A stretch of DNA of 64,000 nt, taken from the NCBI RefSeq assembly GCF_021228795.1, contig NZ_CP089309.1, forward strand, positions 2,418,001 to 2,482,000, in the 5' to 3' direction. Below the pieces are notes generated by a model that did not search any database, was not told the DNA's origin, and worked only from the letters and a program-made list of their open reading frames with translations. Of this stretch, positions 13,115 to 48,128 are shown in pieces (the stretch's first letter is position 1; each line of letters starts with the position of its first letter). The stretch comes from Thiocapsa bogorovii (GTDB taxonomy: Bacteria > Pseudomonadota > Gammaproteobacteria > Chromatiales > Chromatiaceae). Both the position numbers and the translations under genes were made by a program.

Positions 13115-13201
13115 CTGAACCGCGTCCGCTGAAACGCCCGCCGATTGAGACGACAACGAGCCCACACGCAACCCCCGCATGACACACCAGACGCGGTTCA
13201 G
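13115..13201. repeat. 87-bp palindromic element, CTGAACCGCGTC arms
   Basis: Perfect 12-bp arms CTGAACCGCGTC (13115–13126) and GACGCGGTTCAG (13190–13201) enclose 63 unrelated bases. The pcm-like gene (minus strand) ends 6 bp away, and its TGA lies in a partial extra copy of the arm (CTGAACCG). Confidence 0.85.
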
Positions 13202-19000: not shown

Positions 19001-19357
19001 TGGGTTTCCTCGAAAAAGAATCGGCGGCGTCCGGATCCTGTCCAGACAAGGGGTGGACATGGTATCGAGTCATCCGCAGTACAACGATGAGGAACCGCAT
19101 TAAACCGCGCCCATCGCGGTATGCGGTGTTTTTGGATGGGATCGGCCCCGGCAGACTTGACAAGCACTGGAGTAAATGCGGTTTAAGATACTAAAAAATC
19201 GACTATTTTAAACCCAGCCTCCTCTCTAGAGCCGCGAATACATCAAACGTCGAAGTCACTCGAAATTGAGCATCGCGCTCTCGACGCGGTTTAGCGTAGC
19301 CGGCAACCGCTTGGCCGGGAACGTTGCGCATGCCGACCGCCGTAGCTAGCATTTTGC
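19001..19357. other. Intergenic region with palindromes, no supported gene
   Basis: The 357 bp upstream of the ABC1 kinase gene hold the degenerate palindromic element at 19100–19186. A possible second 87-bp copy follows at 19208–19294 (TTAAACCCAGCC against GACGCGGTTTAG, four mismatches in 12). A minus-strand frame at 19203–19394 has no recognisable product. Confidence 0.5.
19100..19186. repeat. 87-bp palindromic element, degenerate copy
   Basis: TTAAACCGC (19100–19108) and GCGGTTTAA (19178–19186) are perfect 9-bp inverted ends. The length is exactly 87 bp, as in three of the well-conserved copies. The inner GTC/GAC part of the arms has diverged. Confidence 0.6.
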
Positions 19358-22832: not shown

Positions 22833-22917
22833 CTGAACCGCGTCTGCCGGACCATGCGGGGTCTTCGGGCTGGATCGACGTGATCTGAATCAACCGAGGT
22901 CCGTGGTGACGCGGTTC
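22833..22917. repeat. ~85-bp palindromic element, CTGAACCGCGTC arms (right arm slightly decayed)
   Basis: The left arm CTGAACCGCGTC (22833–22844) and the right arm GACGCGGTTC (22908–22917) match over 10 bp; the right end then reads CGG instead of AG. The left arm begins 1 bp after the TGA of the SIR2-like gene, which itself lies in a CTGAA copy of the arm start. Confidence 0.8.
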
Positions 22918-23006
22918 CGGATGGGAAAACCGGGAATGAAGGACAGCAGAGGAGAGACGGAGAAGGTGTAGCGAGAAACCTGCGGTATCTTTTTTACGTC
23001 TTAAAC

Positions 23007-32089: not shown

Positions 32090-32185
32090 TCCTCAGGGGC
32101 GCGTCCGCGCAGGCGCGCCTGCTGCCGGACGGTGGTATCCTTGGGGCGAGCGAAGCACCGTCCCCACGTTCAGGCAGTCGCGGAC

Positions 32186-35002
32186 ATGAATCTCCTCTTC
32201 GTCGTTCTCATTCTCTTCATCGGGGCCGGTCTGGCTGCGTGGGTCTCGCGTTTCGGCCGGCTGCAATCGGCCTGGATGGCCGGTGGCATCGCCCTTGCCG
32301 CCATGGCAGCGCTGGCACCGAGCGTGGCCGCTCCGTTTCTGGGCGAGACCCTGGTGCAACGCATCCCATGGATACCGGCGCTGGGACTCGATCTCGCCTT
32401 CCGACTCGACGGGTTGGGTCTGCTGTTCGCCCTGATGATTCTGGGAATCGGTCTGCTGGTCATTCTCTACGCGCGCTACTACCTGGCCGAGCGCGACTGT
32501 ATGGGCCGCTTCTACGGCTATCTGTTGCTCTTCATGGGCTCGATGCTCGGAATCGTCCTGTCCGAGAACCTGATCCTGCTCTTGATGTTCTGGGAGTTGA
32601 CGAGCCTCTCGTCCTTCCTGCTGATCAGTTACTGGCAGCATCGCGAGGATGCCCGAACGGGGGCGCGCATGGCGCTTGCCGTCACCGGGCTGGGCGGGCT
32701 CGCCATGCTCGGCGGCTTCGTGCTACTGGGCGAGATGGTCGGAAGCTACGATCTGTCCGTGATCCTCGCCAACGGCGAGCTGATCCGATCCGACCCGCTC
32801 TACACGCCGATGCTGGTGTTGATCTTGCTCGGCGCCTTGACCAAGTCGGCGCAGTTCCCCTTCCATTTCTGGCTGCCGCACGCCATGGCGGCACCCACGC
32901 CCGTATCGGCCTATCTGCACTCGGCAACCCTGGTCAAAGCGGGTGTGTTCCTGCTGGCTCGACTGTTCCCGGCGCTTTCGGGCACGACCGAGTGGTCGGT
33001 TCTCGTCATGGGCGCGGGGCTTTCGACGCTCTTGATCGGCGCCTATTTCGCCCTCTTCAAACACGACCTCAAGGGCCTGCTCGCCTATTCGACCATCAGC
33101 CATCTGGGTCTGATCACGCTGCTGTTCGGCATCGGGACACCGCTCGCCGCGGTCGCCGGGGTCTTCCACATCATCAACCACGCAACCTTCAAGGCATCGC
33201 TCTTCATGGCCGCGGGCATCATCGACCACGAATGCGGGACGCGCGACATGCGCCGCATCAACGGTCTCTGGCGCTATATGCCCTACACGGGAACGCTGGC
33301 GATGGTGGCCGCAGCGGCCATGGCCGGCGTTCCGCTCTTCAACGGGTTCCTCTCCAAGGAGATGTTCTTCGGCGAAACGGTCAGCTTCTCCGCGAAGCAT
33401 CACTGGGAGTGGCTCCTGCCCAGCGCGGTCGTTGTCGCGGGGATCTTTGCCGTGGCCTATTCGCTGCGCTTTATCCACGACGTCTTCTTCAACGGCGATC
33501 CGGTCGACCTGCCGAGGACCCCGCATGAGCCGCCGCGCTGGATGAAGGTGCCGGTAGAGATCCTGGTTGCGGTCTGTTTGCTCGTCGGGATCCTGCCTGC
33601 CTTCACCGTAGCGCCGCTGCTCTCGGTTGCGGCGACGGGCGTCCTGCAGAGCGCCCCGCCGGACTACGATCTGGCCATCTGGCACGGCGTCAACGCCGCG
33701 CTTGTGATGAGCATCGTCGCCTTGATCGGAGGGGTCCTGATCTATGCCGGACGCCGGCCGCTGTTCAGCCTCGCGACCAAGCTCGAAGGGCTTCTCGATG
33801 CCAAGGCCGTCTTCGATTGGCTGTTGGGCAAGCTCCTCGCTCTAGCCCGCGCCGTCACGCTCACCCTGGATTCGGGATCTCTGCAACGCATGCTGTTTGT
33901 TTTCATCGTCTCGGCCCTGACCCTGGGGACGGTCGGTTTCCTCGGCGGCGGCGCACCTCTGGCCGGCGATCGCGCCCTTTTGCCGGCCGATGCGGTCAGT
34001 CTTCTCGTGACGATCGCTCTGATCACCGTCGCGCTGTGGACGGTCGTCCTGCACCGTCGCCGCCTGACCGCACTGATCGTGATGGGTGCCTTGGGCCTGC
34101 TGGTCTCGCTCATCTTCGTGAAGTTCTCGGCTCCGGATCTCGCATTGACCCAGCTCTCGGTCGAGGTGGTGACGATCGTCCTGCTGCTCTTGGCGCTCTA
34201 TTTCCTGCCGCAGCACAGCCCGAGCGAGTCGAGCCTGGCCCGGCGGATTCGAGACATGGGTGTCGCCGGCTTGGCCGGCGGCGGAGCGGCGGCCCTCACC
34301 TGGTCGGTCCTGACCCGCCCTTACGAGAGCATCGCGGACTACTTTCTGGAGAACAGCGTACCCGGAGGCGGAGGCGGCAACGTCGTCAACGTCATCCTGG
34401 TTGATTTCCGAGGTTTCGATACCTTGGGCGAGATCTCGGTCCTGGCGCTGGCCGGATTGGGGATCTATGCGATGCTGAAGGATCTGCGTCTGCCCGGACC
34501 CGCGTACGACACCCGCGGGCGCCCGTGGAATTGGGACATGCATCCGACCATCATGGCCGCCCTGACGCGCCTCCTGCTGCCGCTCGCCCTCCTGGTCTCG
34601 GTCTTCATCTTCCTGCGCGGTCACAACCTGCCGGGCGGCGGTTTCATCGCCGGGCTCATTACCGCAATCGCCTTGATCATGCAGTACCTTGCGAACGGAG
34701 CGGAATGGACCCACGACCGCATGACATCCAATCTGCATCCGGTCATCGGCGCCGGGCTGATGATCGGGCTGTTGACCGGACTCGCGAGTCTGGTCTTCGG
34801 CTATCCCTTCCTGACATCGGCCTTTACCCATGTGCACTGGCCGGTCATCGGTGACTTCGAGCTGGCCTCGGCGATCGCCTTTGACCTCGGCGTCTACCTC
34901 GTGGTGGTCGGGGCCACGCTCCTGATCCTGGTGCATCTCGGTCTGATGCATCACGCCAGCCATCCGGGCGAGCCGAACACGTCGGAGCCGAACCATGCTT
35001 GA
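32186..35002 (+). CDS. mrpA: Mrp-type Na+/H+ antiporter subunit A fused to subunit B
   Basis: 938 residues with about 20 or more membrane helices. The N-terminal part is a proton-pumping NuoL-like subunit: LMFWELTSLSSFLLISYW holds the key Glu, and LTKSAQFPFHFWLPHAM is the classical antiporter motif. After the MbhE-like middle, the last ~150 residues are a complete MrpB domain (LRGHNLPGGGFIAGL). The A-B fusion is the group-2 Mrp arrangement (also PhaAB/ShaAB). It exchanges Na+ or K+ for protons across the inner membrane. ATG at 32186 (MNLLFVVLILFIG) is preferred to the upstream in-frame start. It overlaps mrpC by 8 bp. Confidence 0.95.
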   Translation: MNLLFVVLILFIGAGLAAWVSRFGRLQSAWMAGGIALAAMAALAPSVAAPFLGETLVQRIPWIPALGLDLAFRLDGLGLLFALMILGIGLLVILYARYYLAERDCMGRFYGYLLLFMGSMLGIVLSENLILLLMFWELTSLSSFLLISYWQHREDARTGARMALAVTGLGGLAMLGGFVLLGEMVGSYDLSVILANGELIRSDPLYTPMLVLILLGALTKSAQFPFHFWLPHAMAAPTPVSAYLHSATLVKAGVFLLARLFPALSGTTEWSVLVMGAGLSTLLIGAYFALFKHDLKGLLAYSTISHLGLITLLFGIGTPLAAVAGVFHIINHATFKASLFMAAGIIDHECGTRDMRRINGLWRYMPYTGTLAMVAAAAMAGVPLFNGFLSKEMFFGETVSFSAKHHWEWLLPSAVVVAGIFAVAYSLRFIHDVFFNGDPVDLPRTPHEPPRWMKVPVEILVAVCLLVGILPAFTVAPLLSVAATGVLQSAPPDYDLAIWHGVNAALVMSIVALIGGVLIYAGRRPLFSLATKLEGLLDAKAVFDWLLGKLLALARAVTLTLDSGSLQRMLFVFIVSALTLGTVGFLGGGAPLAGDRALLPADAVSLLVTIALITVALWTVVLHRRRLTALIVMGALGLLVSLIFVKFSAPDLALTQLSVEVVTIVLLLLALYFLPQHSPSESSLARRIRDMGVAGLAGGGAAALTWSVLTRPYESIADYFLENSVPGGGGGNVVNVILVDFRGFDTLGEISVLALAGLGIYAMLKDLRLPGPAYDTRGRPWNWDMHPTIMAALTRLLLPLALLVSVFIFLRGHNLPGGGFIAGLITAIALIMQYLANGAEWTHDRMTSNLHPVIGAGLMIGLLTGLASLVFGYPFLTSAFTHVHWPVIGDFELASAIAFDLGVYLVVVGATLLILVHLGLMHHASHPGEPNTSEPNHA

Positions 35003-36926: not shown

Positions 36927-37421
36927 ATGAAGCTCAGGCTGCTGCCCCATCCCATCCTCACGCCGGTGCTGGCCCTGATCTGGCTCCTGCTGGTCAACAG
37001 CCTGTCGCCCGGGCAGATCCTCTTGGGACTGATCCTGGGATGGGCGATCCCGGTCTTCACGCTGCGCTTCTGGCCGGAGCGGGTCAGGATCCACAAGCCG
37101 CTGACCTTAATGCGATTCTTTGCGGTCGTCATGTACGACATCCTGATCGCGAACCTGACGGTCGCCGCGCTGATACTGGGCGGGCCCAAGCACGTCAAGC
37201 CGGCCTTCGTGCGCGTGCCGCTCGCCTTGCGCACGGATCTCGGGATCAGCCTGCTCGCCAATACGGTCTCGTTGACCCCAGGCACCGTCTCGGCTTGGCT
37301 CAGCCCGGACCGCAGCCATTTGGTCGTGCATGGGCTGAAGGTCAGAGATCCCGACGCCCTGATCGCCGAGATCAAGCGCCGCTACGAGGCGCCGATCAAA
37401 GAGGTCTTCGAACCATGTTGA
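36927..37421 (+). CDS. mrpE: Mrp-type Na+/H+ antiporter subunit E
   Basis: 164 residues, with N-terminal helices and the family stretch ANTVSLTPGTVSAWLSPD followed by LVVHGL. It is required for complex assembly in other bacteria. The stop overlaps the mrpF ATG by 7 bp. Confidence 0.94.
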   Translation: MKLRLLPHPILTPVLALIWLLLVNSLSPGQILLGLILGWAIPVFTLRFWPERVRIHKPLTLMRFFAVVMYDILIANLTVAALILGGPKHVKPAFVRVPLALRTDLGISLLANTVSLTPGTVSAWLSPDRSHLVVHGLKVRDPDALIAEIKRRYEAPIKEVFEPC

Positions 37422-37684
37422 ACATTGCCGTCTCCATCTCTTTCGCACTGGTCTCCGGCGCGCTGTTCCTGAGCCTGTGGCGTCTGCTCAGGGGACCGGA
37501 CAAGCCCGACCGCATCCTGGCGCTCGACACCCTCTACATCAATACGATCGCCTTGCTGGTCCTGCTCGGGATCCATCTGAGCAGCTCGCTGTACTTCGAG
37601 GCCGCGCTCCTGATCGCTATGATGGGGTTCGTCGGGACCGTGGCACTCTGCAAATATCTGTTGCGCGGCGATATCATCGAGTGA
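37415..37684 (+). CDS. mrpF: Mrp-type Na+/H+ antiporter subunit F
   Basis: An 89-residue three-helix subunit. LLRGPDKPDRILALDTLYIN is the MrpF signature, then ALLIAMMGFVGTVALCKYLL. ATG at 37415 overlaps mrpE. Its TGA (37682–37684) touches the first of two palindromic elements. Confidence 0.94.
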   Translation: MLNIAVSISFALVSGALFLSLWRLLRGPDKPDRILALDTLYINTIALLVLLGIHLSSSLYFEAALLIAMMGFVGTVALCKYLLRGDIIE

Positions 37685-37776
37685 TGAAAGCGCGTCTTTT
37701 GGTGGACTTTTTTGATGTTCGAGGGTTTGACGAGCGTCGCGGGCATCTGTTCGCCTTGGAGCTGACGCGCTTTCAT
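37684..37776. repeat. 93-bp palindromic element, ATGAAAGCGCGTC arms
   Basis: Perfect 13-bp arms ATGAAAGCGCGTC (37684–37696) and GACGCGCTTTCAT (37764–37776). The first base is the last base of the mrpF stop codon. The outer arm sequence differs from other copies, yet both arms agree. Confidence 0.82.
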
Positions 37777-37802
37777 GATGTTTCGTATTTTGTGTTTTTT
37801 AC

Positions 37803-37902
37803 TTCAATCGCGTCGACTCCATGCTCTGATCGGGCCACGTGGGTATGATCCGGTACAGCCTCTATCCATCACGCCGACCATCACGCCGAGGACGCGATTG
37901 AA
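37803..37902. repeat. 100-bp palindromic element, TTCAATCGCGTC arms
   Basis: Perfect 12-bp arms TTCAATCGCGTC (37803–37814) and GACGCGATTGAA (37891–37902). The last A is the A of the mrpG ATG, and the likely Shine-Dalgarno GAGGA (37888–37892) runs into the right arm. Pairing of the arms in mRNA would cover the mrpG start. Confidence 0.82.
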
Positions 37903-38255
37903 TGCTTGAGATCATGTTGTCGGTCCTGATCGTGGTCGGTGCACTCTTCACCTTCATCGGCTCTTTGGGACTCGCGCGTCTCGACGATTTTTACACGCGG
38001 CTGCATGGCCCGACCAAAGCGACGACGCTCGGTGTCGGGGCCTTGCTGATCGCCTCCGTGCTCTATTTCAGTTCCCGAGGCGAGGGGCTCAGCCTGCATG
38101 AGGTCCTGGTGACGCTCTTCCTCTTCATCACGGCCCCGGTCAGTGCGCACCTACTCGCCAAGGCCGCACTGCATCTGCGCGTACGCTCGATTGCACCGCC
38201 CCCGGCCGAGGCCGAAGATCCGTTGGCCGACACCCGCGCCCGCGCCGGCGAGTAG
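37902..38255 (+). CDS. mrpG: Mrp-type Na+/H+ antiporter subunit G
   Basis: A 117-residue subunit with three helices. The signature FIGSLGLARLDDFYTRLHGPTK (about 21–42) is cut here by text limits but clearly visible as GSLGLARLDDFYTRLHGPT; then LFLFITAPVSAHLLAKAA. It completes the A-to-G set. The 217-bp gap from mrpF is unusual for this tightly overlapping operon and is filled by two palindromic elements. Confidence 0.94.
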   Translation: MLEIMLSVLIVVGALFTFIGSLGLARLDDFYTRLHGPTKATTLGVGALLIASVLYFSSRGEGLSLHEVLVTLFLFITAPVSAHLLAKAALHLRVRSIAPPPAEAEDPLADTRARAGE

Positions 38256-38318
38256 GTTCGACCAAGCCGTGTCGGCCTCTGCGACCCGGGCGACGATCGA
38301 GCGTAACCCTCATCCACC

Positions 38319-40292
38319 ATGATCATCGTCGGCATCGACACCGGAGGCACCTTCACCGACCTGGTGCTCTGGCGCGACGGGTCGGTAAAGACCCACAAGG
38401 TCCTCTCGACGCCGGCGGCACCCGAGCAAGCGATCCTGCGCGGAATCGCCGAGCTTGGTCTCGACCCGACCGGGTTGCACGTCATCCACGGGAGCACCGT
38501 CGCAACCAACGCCGTTCTCGAAGGTAAGGGAGTCCGGACACTCTATGTCGCCAATCGCGGGCTCGGCGATCTCTTGACGATCGGTCGCCAGGCGCGGCCG
38601 GATCTCTACGATCTCCAGCCGCCGGCACGGCGCCCGCCGGTTCCTCCCGAACTCTGTGTCGAAACCGGCGGGCGCCTCGGTGCCGACGGCCATTGGGTCG
38701 AGCCCTTGACCGCGGTCGACCTGGAGGCGCTGAAGGCCGCGCTCATTCGGCTCGCCCCGGAGTCGGTCGCGATCAACCTGCTCTATTCGTATCTGGACGA
38801 CAGCGCCGAGCGTGCCTTGGAGGCGGCCGTGCCCGCGGGCCTGTTCGTCGCACGCTCCTCCGAGGTTCTCCCCCTCGTCGGCGAGTACGAACGGGGGATC
38901 GCCACCTGGATCAACGCCAGGATCGGGCCCATCGTCGCCCGCTACATCGGGCGCCTCGCCGAGGGTCTGTCGGGCGCACGGGTCTCGGTCATGCAAAGCA
39001 GCGGTGAGGCGGTGACGGCGAGTCAGGCCGCCCGACATACGGCGCGTCTGCTGCTCTCCGGTCCCGCCGGCGGATTGGCCGGGGCTGCCTTCGCCGCGGC
39101 GCACACCGATTGCCCGCGGCTGCTGACTTTCGACATGGGAGGGACCTCCACGGACGTCGCCGTGGTCGACGGCGAGCCGCGCCTCACCACCGACGGGCGG
39201 ATCGCCGGCTTTCCCGTCGCACTGCCGATGGTCGATATGCACACCATCGGGGCCGGCGGTGGATCGATCGCGCGACTCGATGCCGGTGGCATGCTCCTGG
39301 TCGGACCCGAGTCCGCCGGGGCCGATCCGGGACCCGCCTGTTATGACCGTGGCGGATGCGAGGCGACCGTGACCGACGCAAACCTGGTGCTCGGACGGCT
39401 CGATCCGAACGGATTCCTCGGCGGGCGCATGCGGTTGAGCACGGACGCCGCGCGCACGGCCATCGCAAGACTGGCGCGCCCCATGGGCCTGTCGATCGAG
39501 GAGGCCGCACTGGGTGTGATCCGTCTGGCCGACGAGCATATGGCCCGCGCCCTGCGGGTGATCTCGGCGCAGCGCGGCCTGGATCCGCGCGACTTCATCC
39601 TGACCTCGTTCGGCGGTGCCGGGGGTCTGCATGTCTGCGCCCTGGCCGAGGCGCTGGGCATCACCCGCGCCTTGGTTCCGGTGCATGCCGGTGTCCTCTC
39701 GGCGCTCGGGATGGTGGTGACACCGGCCGGGCGAACCCTGACACGGACGCGTCTCGGACTGCTCGCCGAGGCCGGCGATGCAGAGATCGAGTCGGCGTTT
39801 GTCGCGCTTGTCGAGTCCGGGATCGCCGAGTTGGAGCAGGAAGGTTTGGCCCGCGAACGGCTGCGTGTCGAGCGCTCGCTCGATCTACGCTATCGTGGCC
39901 AGTCGCATACGCTCAACCTGTCCTGGGATGGCGTGGCGGAGACCATGTCCGCGTTTCACGCTCAGCACCGGGATCGCTACGGCCACCGACTCGATCTGCC
40001 GGTCGAGCTGGTGAATCTGCGGGTGCGCGTACGCGGCCCGACCGCGAATCTTGCGCTGCCGCCGATCGGCACGTCCGGCCGAAACAGTCCGACGGGAAGC
40101 GTCAATGCCTACGGATGTCGGACGCCGGTCACCTGCTGGACGCGCGAGGGCCTGGGGACAGGACATGAGCTGATCGGCCCGGCGATCATCGCAGACGCCC
40201 TGGCTACAACCTGGCTCGCCCCCGGTTGGCGGGCCCATCTGGACGCGGTCGGGAACCTGATGCTACAAAGAGCGGTCGGAATACAACCCTAG
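38319..40292 (+). CDS. Hydantoinase/oxoprolinase subunit A-like protein (HyuA family)
   Basis: 657 residues of the HyuA (hydantoinase A/oxoprolinase) family, which uses ATP to open five-membered cyclic amides. The N-terminal actin-like phosphate loop IVGIDTGGTFTDLVLW, HGSTVATNAVLEGKG, LLSGPAGGLAGAA and the second phosphate loop LTFDMGGTSTDVAVVDG are intact. VDMHTIGAGGGSIA and GPESAGADPGPACY are also typical. The usual partner HyuB is not beside it, so the active complex or substrate is unclear. Confidence 0.88.
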   Translation: MIIVGIDTGGTFTDLVLWRDGSVKTHKVLSTPAAPEQAILRGIAELGLDPTGLHVIHGSTVATNAVLEGKGVRTLYVANRGLGDLLTIGRQARPDLYDLQPPARRPPVPPELCVETGGRLGADGHWVEPLTAVDLEALKAALIRLAPESVAINLLYSYLDDSAERALEAAVPAGLFVARSSEVLPLVGEYERGIATWINARIGPIVARYIGRLAEGLSGARVSVMQSSGEAVTASQAARHTARLLLSGPAGGLAGAAFAAAHTDCPRLLTFDMGGTSTDVAVVDGEPRLTTDGRIAGFPVALPMVDMHTIGAGGGSIARLDAGGMLLVGPESAGADPGPACYDRGGCEATVTDANLVLGRLDPNGFLGGRMRLSTDAARTAIARLARPMGLSIEEAALGVIRLADEHMARALRVISAQRGLDPRDFILTSFGGAGGLHVCALAEALGITRALVPVHAGVLSALGMVVTPAGRTLTRTRLGLLAEAGDAEIESAFVALVESGIAELEQEGLARERLRVERSLDLRYRGQSHTLNLSWDGVAETMSAFHAQHRDRYGHRLDLPVELVNLRVRVRGPTANLALPPIGTSGRNSPTGSVNAYGCRTPVTCWTREGLGTGHELIGPAIIADALATTWLAPGWRAHLDAVGNLMLQRAVGIQP

Positions 40293-40369
40293 TCTGTCAA
40301 CGGCAAGGGACAGTTCGCCGTGCGGCCACGCGCCGGTCGGCACGCCACCACCACTCCTACAGGACATCC

Positions 40370-42869: not shown

Positions 42870-43565
42870 TCACACCGTCAGGTATTGCTTGACCAGATCC
42901 TCGCTCAGATCGGGCATCGCCCCGCTCGCCATGAGACGCCCGCGGTCGAGGATGATGAAACGATCGGCAACGCGGCGGGCGAAAGGAAGCTTCTGCTCGA
43001 CGAGGATGACGGTCAGGTTCAGGTCGGTCATGAGCCGGCGGATGATGTCGCGGATCTCGTGGACGATGTTGGGTTGGATGCCTTCGGTGGGCTCGTCGAG
43101 GATCAGGAGCTTGGGATCGATGACCAGGGCGCGCCCGATGGCGAGTTGCTGTTGCTGTCCGCCGGAGAGGTCGCCGCCGCGGCGCCCGAGCATCTCTTTG
43201 AGGACGGGGAAGAGCTCGTAGATGTAGCCGGGGATCTCTTTGGCGCGATCGGGACGCGCGGCAAGACCGATGCGCAGATTCTCCTCGACGGTCAACAGCG
43301 GGAAGATCTGTCGGCCCTGCGGGACATAGCCGATCCCGAGCGGCGCGCGACGCTCTGCGGTAAGTCGCGCAAGATCCTGGCCTTGATAGCTGAGGGATCC
43401 GGAGCGCAATGGCAAAAGCCCCATGATGCACTGCATCAGGGTGGTCTTACCGACCCCGTTGCGTCCCATCACACAGGTGCATTGGCCCTGAGGGATCTCG
43501 ACGTCCAGATCCCAGAGGGTGTGACTCTCGCCGAAGAACTGATTGAGTCCCGAAATCGCAAGCAT
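42870..43565 (-). CDS. urtE: Urea ABC transporter ATP-binding protein UrtE
   Basis: 231 residues. Walker A GRNGVGKTT, signature LSGGQQQQLAIGRAL, Walker B LLILDEPTEGIQP and a LivF-like length and C-terminus. ISGLNQFFGESHTLWDLDVE is UrtE-like. It powers urea import with UrtD. It is separated from urtD by a DUF29 gene and two palindromic elements, and I see no Shine-Dalgarno: the element arm ends one base before the ATG. Confidence 0.93.
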   Translation of the reverse strand: MLAISGLNQFFGESHTLWDLDVEIPQGQCTCVMGRNGVGKTTLMQCIMGLLPLRSGSLSYQGQDLARLTAERRAPLGIGYVPQGRQIFPLLTVEENLRIGLAARPDRAKEIPGYIYELFPVLKEMLGRRGGDLSGGQQQQLAIGRALVIDPKLLILDEPTEGIQPNIVHEIRDIIRRLMTDLNLTVILVEQKLPFARRVADRFIILDRGRLMASGAMPDLSEDLVKQYLTV

Positions 43566-43566
43566 A

Positions 43567-43651
43567 TTGAATCGCGTCCGAGGTGATGATCGATATTGTC
43601 ATGTGCCGCCGCGTCGATGGCCCAGGATGCCTTACAGTCGACGCGATTCAA
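43567..43651. repeat. 85-bp palindromic element, TTGAATCGCGTC arms, at the urtE start
   Basis: Perfect 12-bp arms TTGAATCGCGTC (43567–43578) and GACGCGATTCAA (43640–43651). On the transcribed minus strand the last arm ends one base before the urtE start codon. Confidence 0.85.
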
Positions 43652-43667
43652 GATGAAAGAAAACATT

Positions 43668-43754
43668 CTAAAACGCGTCCCCGCTGCGGTCGTTGGCTCA
43701 TCGGCGGCCCGATCAAAGCGATCACATCGCAAGGTTGCACGAGACGCGTTTTAG
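43668..43754. repeat. 87-bp palindromic element, CTAAAACGCGTC arms, at the DUF29 stop
   Basis: Perfect 12-bp arms CTAAAACGCGTC (43668–43679) and GACGCGTTTTAG (43743–43754). The TAA stop of the DUF29 gene (minus strand, 43751–43753) is inside the arm. It lies 16 bp from the neighbouring element. Confidence 0.85.
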
Positions 43755-44182
43755 CCGGGCAGAAAGGTGCCTTGGATCTGCGTCTCGTCCCATGGGCAAC
43801 TTTTGGGAAAGGCATCGTAGTCCAGGGGCGTCTCGGCAACGGCGAGGTCGACTGCATCCGGATAGGCGTCTCGGATGATCTCGTCCAGTCTCGCGCCCAG
43901 GCTCGGATTCTCGTCCAGCAGCTTGGCGATCGCCCGGCGCTGAGTATTGATGGTCGCGCGCCATGATTTGCGACTCGGATACTCCGGCTGGTACTGCCAT
44001 TTGAGGAGGTGTCCCATCAAGACGGCGAGCCGACTCTCCAACGCGCGCCGCTCCCGCTTTCCCAAGTCCTCGATCTCCTCGACAAGGTGCGTCACATCCA
44101 ATCGACCGTACTGACCGGAGCGTAGCAGGCTTGCCTGCTCTCTCGACCAGGCATAGAAGTCTTGATCGTAGTCAGTCGTCAT
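43751..44182 (-). CDS. DUF29 family protein
   Basis: 143 residues with the DUF29 pattern: DQDFYAWSREQASLLRSGQY, then DVTHLVEEIEDLGKRERRAL, LMGHLLKWQYQPE and SWRATINTQRRAIAKLL. The family is common in cyanobacteria and Chromatiaceae, often in multiple copies and near mobile DNA; function unknown. It interrupts the urt operon between urtD and urtE. ATG at 44182 is preferred because GGAGG lies 8 nt upstream. Confidence 0.9.
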   Translation of the reverse strand: MTTDYDQDFYAWSREQASLLRSGQYGRLDVTHLVEEIEDLGKRERRALESRLAVLMGHLLKWQYQPEYPSRKSWRATINTQRRAIAKLLDENPSLGARLDEIIRDAYPDAVDLAVAETPLDYDAFPKSCPWDETQIQGTFLPG

Positions 44183-44257
44183 CGCATGACCTCCGAGAAC
44201 GTTCGCGCGCATGGCGCGCGGTCTCGAATAGAATACATGAGGCGCTTCCCATCGGGC

Positions 44258-48040: not shown

Positions 48041-48128
48041 TTGAACCGCGTCCAACGCCGCACGCCTGGAGTCACTCCAAGTCAAGCCATCGGCCTGATC
48101 CGTGCATACCGCGCCGGACGCGATTCAA
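48041..48128. repeat. 88-bp palindromic element between urtA and urtB
   Basis: Arms TTGAACCGCGTC (48041–48052) and GACGCGATTCAA (48117–48128) differ at one position. In RNA copied from the minus strand, the direction of urt transcription, that position becomes a U·G wobble, so the stem is preserved. The element begins 5 nt after the urtA TAG. Confidence 0.82.

Follow-up and report, generated by a model that had tools for sequence, protein, structure and literature searches.

Why the mrpF and mrpG genes of Thiocapsa bogorovii should be held apart by a pair of palindromes, and whether these palindromes amount to a switch on mrpG, is the question raised by this locus. In the preliminary description of the window (the whole 64,000-nucleotide stretch of DNA analysed) it was proposed that pairing of the arms in the mRNA would block mrpG initiation. 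The layout behind this proposal was borne out. The earlier mrp genes up to mrpF overlap or are spaced by 16 nt; mrpF and mrpG are 217 nt apart, from the stop TGA (37682-37684, mrpF ending at 37684) to the start ATG (37902-37904). Two palindromes fill this gap in tandem, with 13/13 and 12/12 arm positions paired, and the right arm beginning at 37891 takes in the GA of a putative Shine-Dalgarno sequence together with the A of the mrpG ATG (Table 1). At the head of the operon, mrpA and mrpB are by eye seemingly fused into one ORF of 956 aa (window 32132-35002).

Table 1. Coordinates of the mrpF-mrpG gap, its parts and the related hairpins of the window.
Feature	Position in window	Strand	Remarks
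mrpF/phaF, 89 aa, upstream gene	37415-37684	+	PF04066, 78 bits; NF004812, 131 bits
mrpG/phaG, 117 aa, downstream gene	37902-38255	+	PF03334, 99 bits; NF009316, 164 bits
Whole two-hairpin element in the mrpF-mrpG gap	37684-37902	+	same site in 8/11 genus genomes; two-hairpin anatomy matches other copies
Hairpin A	37684-37776	+	arms 37684-37696 and 37764-37776 (13 nt, 100% complementary)
AT-rich linker, 26 nt	37777-37802	+	joins hairpins A and B
Hairpin B	37803-37902	-	read as inverted with respect to A; 12-nt arms 37803-37814 and 37891-37902, 100% complementary
12-nt tandem duplication inside hairpin B	37866-37889	+	in the window's species only, of 8 carriers
Putative Shine-Dalgarno GAGGA	37888-37892	+	partly within right arm; GAGGACGCGATTGAATG identical in 8/8
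Short ORF, 54 aa	37684-37848	+	ATG overlaps mrpF stop (TGATG)
Best-preserved two-hairpin copy in the window	19101-19293		79% identical to G004 copy; profile 60.6 and 37.5 bits
Second whole-gap copy	43568-43753	-	stop codon at one end; ABC ATPase start 2 nt from the other
Single hairpin	13116-13200		20.9 bits
Single hairpin, begins on stop codon	21674-21758		weak profile match, 7.3 bits
Single hairpin	22834-22918		22.2 bits
Single hairpin	48042-48127		16.7 bits

Amongst 80 mrpG loci, being those kept out of 273 relatives found, the mrpF-mrpG spacing was 2-27 nt in 72, 32-46 nt in three and 117-175 nt in five. Since most of these loci have a short gap, the 217 nt of the window is unusual, although long gaps are not unique. 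The genus genomes carrying the element at mrp are G000, G001, G002, G003, G004, G007, G008 and G010 (counts out of eight carriers thus include the window's species); it is absent from G005, G006 and G009, the same three that lack the hairpin family described below by the strict arm pattern. G005 and Thiocapsa imhoffii L011 have the same gap, as do G009 and Thiocapsa sp. L012. The covering of the start noted in the window is kept in all eight carriers. Hairpin A pairs at 13/13 positions in seven of the eight species and at 12/13 in G010, and across five relatives its arm identity is 0.99 and its interior identity 0.81; the corresponding values for hairpin B are 1.00 and 0.69. The arms of hairpin B are invariant in 8/8 relatives, which would favour a dedicated translational switch, in which the second hairpin hides the mrpG start until a signal opens it.

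Taken whole, the 281-nt gap RNA is no more stable than its shuffles (z -0.42), and Rfam 15 covariance models gave no match in 37000-38600 up to E 1. A scan of 37400-38050 showed no promoter-like site, and the one terminator-like site lies inside mrpG, with 0.8 expected. An ATG overlaps the mrpF stop in all eight filled relatives and opens an ORF of 31-59 aa. A conserved leader peptide was rejected as an explanation of this ORF: its length is not kept, and it ends before hairpin B in five of the eight species and runs past the left arm of that hairpin in the other three.

The arms of the palindromes led beyond the mrp operon, as the window holds further hairpins with the arm core CGCGTC...GACGCG at equal length. 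A strict arm pattern has 25 copies in the genome and 20-27 in seven of the ten other genomes of the genus, with none in the remaining three, so that the family is present in eight of 11 genus genomes; outside the genus it occurs once, in one of 27 genomes. The reversed pattern was absent from the genome and occurred once in one of 38 genomes, outside the genus. A census allowing two arm mismatches yielded 50 hairpins in 464 kb (the window plus 20 evenly spaced 20-kb stretches), the reversed sequence giving none. Extrapolated, this amounts to about 600 hairpins per genome, or an estimated 460 or so units, of which some 150 would have a start no further than 16 nt away. This count is a lower bound, since the census misses the well-preserved copy at 19101-19293, which needs looser arms. 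A relaxed census returned 202 hairpins beside 28 control hits (10 in G000, 12 in G010 and six in G001), and the main counts were therefore taken from the strict one. Candidates at first look numbered 209-551 per genome in four genomes, about 40 being scored in each.

In its full form the unit is about 192 bp long and consists of two hairpins of about 85 nt joined by an AT-rich linker of 18-29 nt (mode 23). The hairpin core measured 72-79 nt in 47 of the 50 and 88-93 nt in the other three; hairpin B of mrp, at 88 nt compared with the usual 75 nt or so, owes its length to the tandem duplication within it. When syntenic stretches of 58-75 kb from five relatives were set against the window, the six stretches held 40 single hairpins, 26 pairs and one triplet. 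A search with the whole gap sequence gave, apart from the gap itself, only short and weak matches (best other E 0.024), because the interiors differ, and several of these weak match sites turned out to hold family copies. In the second whole-gap copy of the window one half matches the family profile, at 20.9 bits. That copy lies between a short ORF (43751-44212, minus strand) and an ABC-transporter ATPase gene which by eye resembles urtE (42870-43565, minus strand), and the arms of its start-side hairpin are 100% identical in five relatives.

The profile, built from 76 of 147 hairpins outside the window which were selected by their end motif, matched hairpin A of mrp weakly, with 7.3 bits in the window and at best 10.3 bits (E 0.09) in G004; no match was listed for G007. 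For hairpin B, whose orientation was judged by eye from its inner ends, matches reached at most 4.8 bits; those on the minus strand were very weak and confined to G002, G004 and G008, with none in the window. The same profile found nothing in the three empty relatives or in the reversed window. As expected of an old copy, then, the match at mrp is weak, and on sequence grounds it fits such a copy, short of proof. From the arms, size, linker, docking and co-distribution (8/8 vs 0/3) we infer that the mrp gap is a copy of the family.

Evidence of movement came from copies present in one species and missing at the syntenic place of another, which included both pairs of about 192 bp and single hairpins. 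Non-orthologous copies of G004 are up to 93% identical, compared with about 88% between species in synteny, which suggests that the family was still moving once the species had split. At one TA site both hairpins are found in G010, only one in G001 and only the other in G004, suggesting that single hairpins may arise via deletion between the repeated arms.

The empty sites point to insertion at TA and, at some sites, inside a stop codon. The clean case (site 1) has a single TA in the empty G004 and a TA at both ends in the filled G001, and no ORF of more than 80 aa ends there. Site 2 is consistent, with TA in the empty G008 and G002 and TC in the window, and site 3 is partial: the window reads TA, four others read TG, and the filled site lacks 5 nt of the empty one. 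Other empty sites read TC, TG or CA or are unreadable, and at mrp, where no close relative is empty, the insertion target is not readable. The TA of sites 2 and 3 falls within the stop codon of an ORF, which at site 3 is 318 aa long whether the site is empty (the window, and G004 with TGA) or filled (G010). At a fourth site, the stop of a minus-strand ORF, the ORF has 349 aa in G010 (filled) and the window (empty) and 343 aa in G008 (empty).

The ends of the units resemble those of an IS630-family element of 1277 bp in G006 (L199 1371-2647), which encodes a transposase (NF033545, 155 bits, cut-off 100) and has a 34-nt inverted repeat, 82% complementary, that includes TAAACC as the hairpin family does. 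Like termini were found in the related elements L222, L223 and L225, from two other genera of the same family, and no such termini in L224, L226, L227 and L228. Amongst the 30 loci examined from 48 DDE_3 matches, such termini stood on both sides at L199 only; at L200 (G007) one side has family-like ends. By the strict pattern, the hairpin family is missing from G006, the host of L199. At E 1e-60, the genomes G000, G001, G002, G004, G005 and G008 gave no near relative of the IS630 transposase, so there is no known mobiliser in these six genomes. The first bases of the L199 element, TAA, are also the stop of the ORF at 30-1373, which is restriction-enzyme-like by eye; this is the same docking as that of the small element.

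The family is therefore short, dispersed and free of a transposase gene, it inserts at TA with duplication of the TA (at the one clean site), and it has IS630-like terminal inverted repeats, all of which are expected of an IS630-type MITE. A mobilising transposase in the same genome, which is helpful and not required of every MITE, was not seen. That the family is a transposon is very probable.

Palindromes of the REP/BIME/REPIN kind, spread by a RAYT transposase, have to be considered given the high copy number, the paired inverted units, the position at 3' ends of genes and the occurrence of Y1_Tnp (RAYT/IS200-type) genes in all 11 genus genomes. Such an origin is nevertheless highly improbable, as the hairpins are about 85 nt long with interiors of about 63 nt, compared with 20-40 bp for REPs, and as insertion at TA with IS630-like termini is seen instead. 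The size, loops and tag of REP or CGTC-tagged REP sequences are not those of the family hairpins. A link to RAYT was also sought amongst the 14 Y1_Tnp loci of G000 and rejected: at 13 of them the nearest 1.5 kb or so is free of copies, and the remaining one has a copy about 1.3 kb off on one side. Integron attC sites have the ends RYYYAAC...GTTRRRY, and the consensus ends of the family, TRAAN...NTTYA, do not fit them by eye.

The position of the copies against their flanking genes was read from 435 genes called by a simple, purpose-written gene caller. Of the 50 hairpins, 33 are flanked by co-directional genes, 13 by convergent and one by divergent genes, and three fall in called genes. Divergent placement was thus seen for 1/47 intergenic hairpins vs 45/238 spaces of at least 80 nt (strict census; p 0.002), a shortage which is weaker in the looser censuses (16/163 and 21/244 intergenic hairpins). 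Among the 202 hairpins of the looser census, 16 have divergent neighbours and 39 fall within called genes. The 50 hairpins form 38 units, of which 19 start exactly on a stop codon and 29 at -3 to +7 nt from one. Units beginning on a stop codon in the looser census made up 25/53 in G000, 24/53 in G010 and 7/43 in G001. For 12 of the 38 units a downstream start is no more than 16 nt away; such start-adjacent copies are common, which speaks against a switch special to mrpG. As the mrp gap spans from 1 nt past the mrpF stop to the mrpG start, it is one of a class. Docking on stop codons suggests a route by which the element could enter operons without breaking proteins.

The paired arms of the family change far more slowly than the rest of it. 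For seven orthologous hairpins compared with the window (an eighth was left out for having too few relatives), arms agreed at 725/756 cells (95.9%), interiors at 1586/2159 (73.5%) and flanks at 1489/1980. A comparison amongst the relatives only, which reduces the bias from picking paired arms in the window, gave 673 and 685 of 723 for the arms (93-95%), 2974/4005 for interiors (74%) and 2781/3769 for flanks. Arms were better kept than interiors at 17/17 hairpins with an ortholog (17 of 20 had one, in one to five relatives). Stronger conservation of arms near starts was looked for and not found, agreement being 341/352 (0.969) beside starts vs 647/682 (0.949) away from them. Since arms are about equally kept near and away from starts, the role would be one common to the family and not peculiar to mrpG, and this too speaks against a switch special to that gene.

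Between copies, the arms covary. In candidates picked on the other arm positions, the free positions pair in 30/33 (outer), 30/31 (purine/pyrimidine) and 29/32 (core), with two to four pair types each. All five outer pairs are formed in 30/64 at the true spacing vs 0/10 and 0/15 at two control spacings. As a test for action as RNA, G-U was counted against A-C, with 24 to 20, or 24 to 16 minus near-duplicates, and 48 to 31 in an earlier set that had more redundancy. That arms vary between copies yet pair inside each could come from template-switch repair between the arms, which would keep the pairing and involve no function. Such repair is not expected to slow the change of arms between species, where they agree at 93-96% vs 74% inside, and we regard it as an improbable account. 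The hairpins rather seem, from these alignments, to be kept family-wide. MITEs are often viewed as decaying parasites; a MITE-derived hairpin whose interior drifts while its arms resist change points to upkeep by the host.

The proposed block of the mrpG start is partly supported. The Shine-Dalgarno/ATG region is predicted to be less accessible with the element, its mean unpaired fraction at three fold lengths being 0.16-0.33 in carriers vs 0.34-0.52 in the three relatives without it (at one of these lengths the two ranges almost meet, 0.33 vs 0.34), but the predicted fold is not uniform across carriers. When folded from -105 to +25, hairpin B pairs in all eight filled relatives (0.97-0.99) and the start is hidden. 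When folded from -230 to +60, hairpin B does not form in three carriers (G000, G007 and G010) and in G008 it is weak, owing to competing pairings, with the start region still mostly paired.

The lowered accessibility relative to the three empty relatives, like the invariance of the hairpin B arms, speaks for a dedicated translational switch. Weighed against these are the roughly equal conservation of arms far from starts, the same geometry at many genes, the finding of no alternative fold shared across relatives and the lack of an Rfam match, which together make such a switch unlikely. On the predicted folds, a conserved conformational switch at mrpG is likewise unlikely. By anatomy and distribution the hairpins belong to a dispersed mobile element, and that the mrpG start is covered is more probably incidental to this genome-wide element than the mark of an operon-specific switch.

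A subtler device can be drawn from the four arms, since they have one core in common and arm 2 can therefore pair with arm 3; pairings 1:2, 3:4 and 2:3 are each possible. As arm 1 starts at the mrpF stop, a ribosome ending mrpF could cover arm 1, leaving arm 2 to pair with arm 3 and thereby freeing arm 4 and the mrpG start, so that mrpG would remain coupled to mrpF despite the insertion. The ATG overlapping the mrpF stop in 8/8 carriers would suit this. With the mrpF stop region blocked in the fold to mimic a terminating ribosome, the predicted structure of the window's species passes from 3:4 (0.73) to 2:3 (0.99) and the unpaired fraction of the start region rises from 0.14 to 0.37; in G002 the block lowers 3:4 from 0.98 to 0.12 and brings 2:3 from 0.00 up to 0.87, the start region moving from 0.19 to 0.24. 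There is no flip in G001, G003 and G004, however, while G007, G008 and G010 adopt mostly 2:3 even without the block, and the shift in accessibility on blocking is 0.02 or less in four of the eight species. With the flip from 3:4 to 2:3 seen in two of eight species only, a conserved four-arm switch was rejected, and the coupler as a whole is unlikely. A bolder extension, in which several hundred hairpins in most species of the genus form a network of such attenuator-like four-arm couplers with arms selected by the host, can be regarded as a long shot. If it were true, the ribosome ending an upstream gene would decide the opening of the downstream start across stop- and start-docked hairpins.

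Overall, the gap is probably an old insertion of a non-autonomous MITE of IS630/Tc1-mariner type, about 192 bp long, together with the action proposed for it here. The element would insert at TA, sometimes at the TA of a stop codon, where its own terminal A would restore TAA, as a few sites suggest. The mrpF stop and the mrpG start may once have been almost adjacent, in which case the insertion would have brought the last arm up to the mrpG start. The hairpins would then act in the transcript, as other intercistronic repeats may do, and could alter the stability or processing of the upstream mRNA. They may also lower mrpG initiation, as a constant brake and not as a switch. This brake is put forward tentatively, with its chances a little short of even, by analogy with ERIC and Correia elements as portrayed in the available sections of PMC2229807 and PMC2649163. 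The estimated set of units would offer a large natural sample on how an intergenic hairpin affects both of its genes.

Judged from the available sections of PMC2229807 and PMC3049150, the best precedent for a MITE of this kind is RUP of pneumococcus, which targets TA and has termini like those of IS630-Spn1. RUP is 107 bp long and lacks a transposase, IS630-Spn1 being its proposed mobiliser (PMC2229807; PMC3049150). The Thiocapsa element shares with it the small size, IS630-type terminal repeats, TA target, tight RNA fold and many intergenic copies, but is built of two hairpins and a linker, has arms that outlast the interior, and differs in its bacterium and sequence. The Correia elements of Neisseria (CREE/NEMIS) are likewise small and mobile and may join neighbouring mRNAs, in which their paired ends form an RNA hairpin affecting gene expression (sections of PMC2649163 and PMC2229807); CREE, as these sections have it, work via RNase III, IHF and promoters, whereas the region around the mrp gap has no promoter-like site. 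ERIC differs in being 127 bp long with a 7-bp terminal repeat, according to the available part of PMC2229807. The GTAG- and CGTC-tagged REPs are, in the accessible portions of PMC3733652, similar in lying mostly 3' of genes in opposed pairs and in having termini that may supply stops, and dissimilar in being 20-40 bp long with short loops and an unpaired end tag, neither of the latter two being found in the Thiocapsa element. The hairpin family is not described amongst the literature matches listed for Thiocapsa repeats and transposons, Chromatiaceae miniature inverted repeats and IS630 MITEs, although it may be in print elsewhere, nor is it in the available sections of the Thiocapsa bogorovii genome paper (PMC10892978) or of PMC2229807, PMC3049150 and PMC4853749. 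The two-hairpin build, the docking on stop codons and the slowness with which the arms of old copies change are apparently new.

Two further kinds of repeat were observed in the syntenic stretches. G001 and G002 carry a different inverted-repeat insertion of about 110 bp (GAGCGGTGCAGA...), which is missing from the window (40293-40298), G004, G008 and G010. Repeats that by eye resemble RAYT-type REPs (GTAGGATGGGTAGAGCG... and GTAGGGGCGAATTCATTCGCC...) lie beside or inside family copies in the stretches of G001 and G010.
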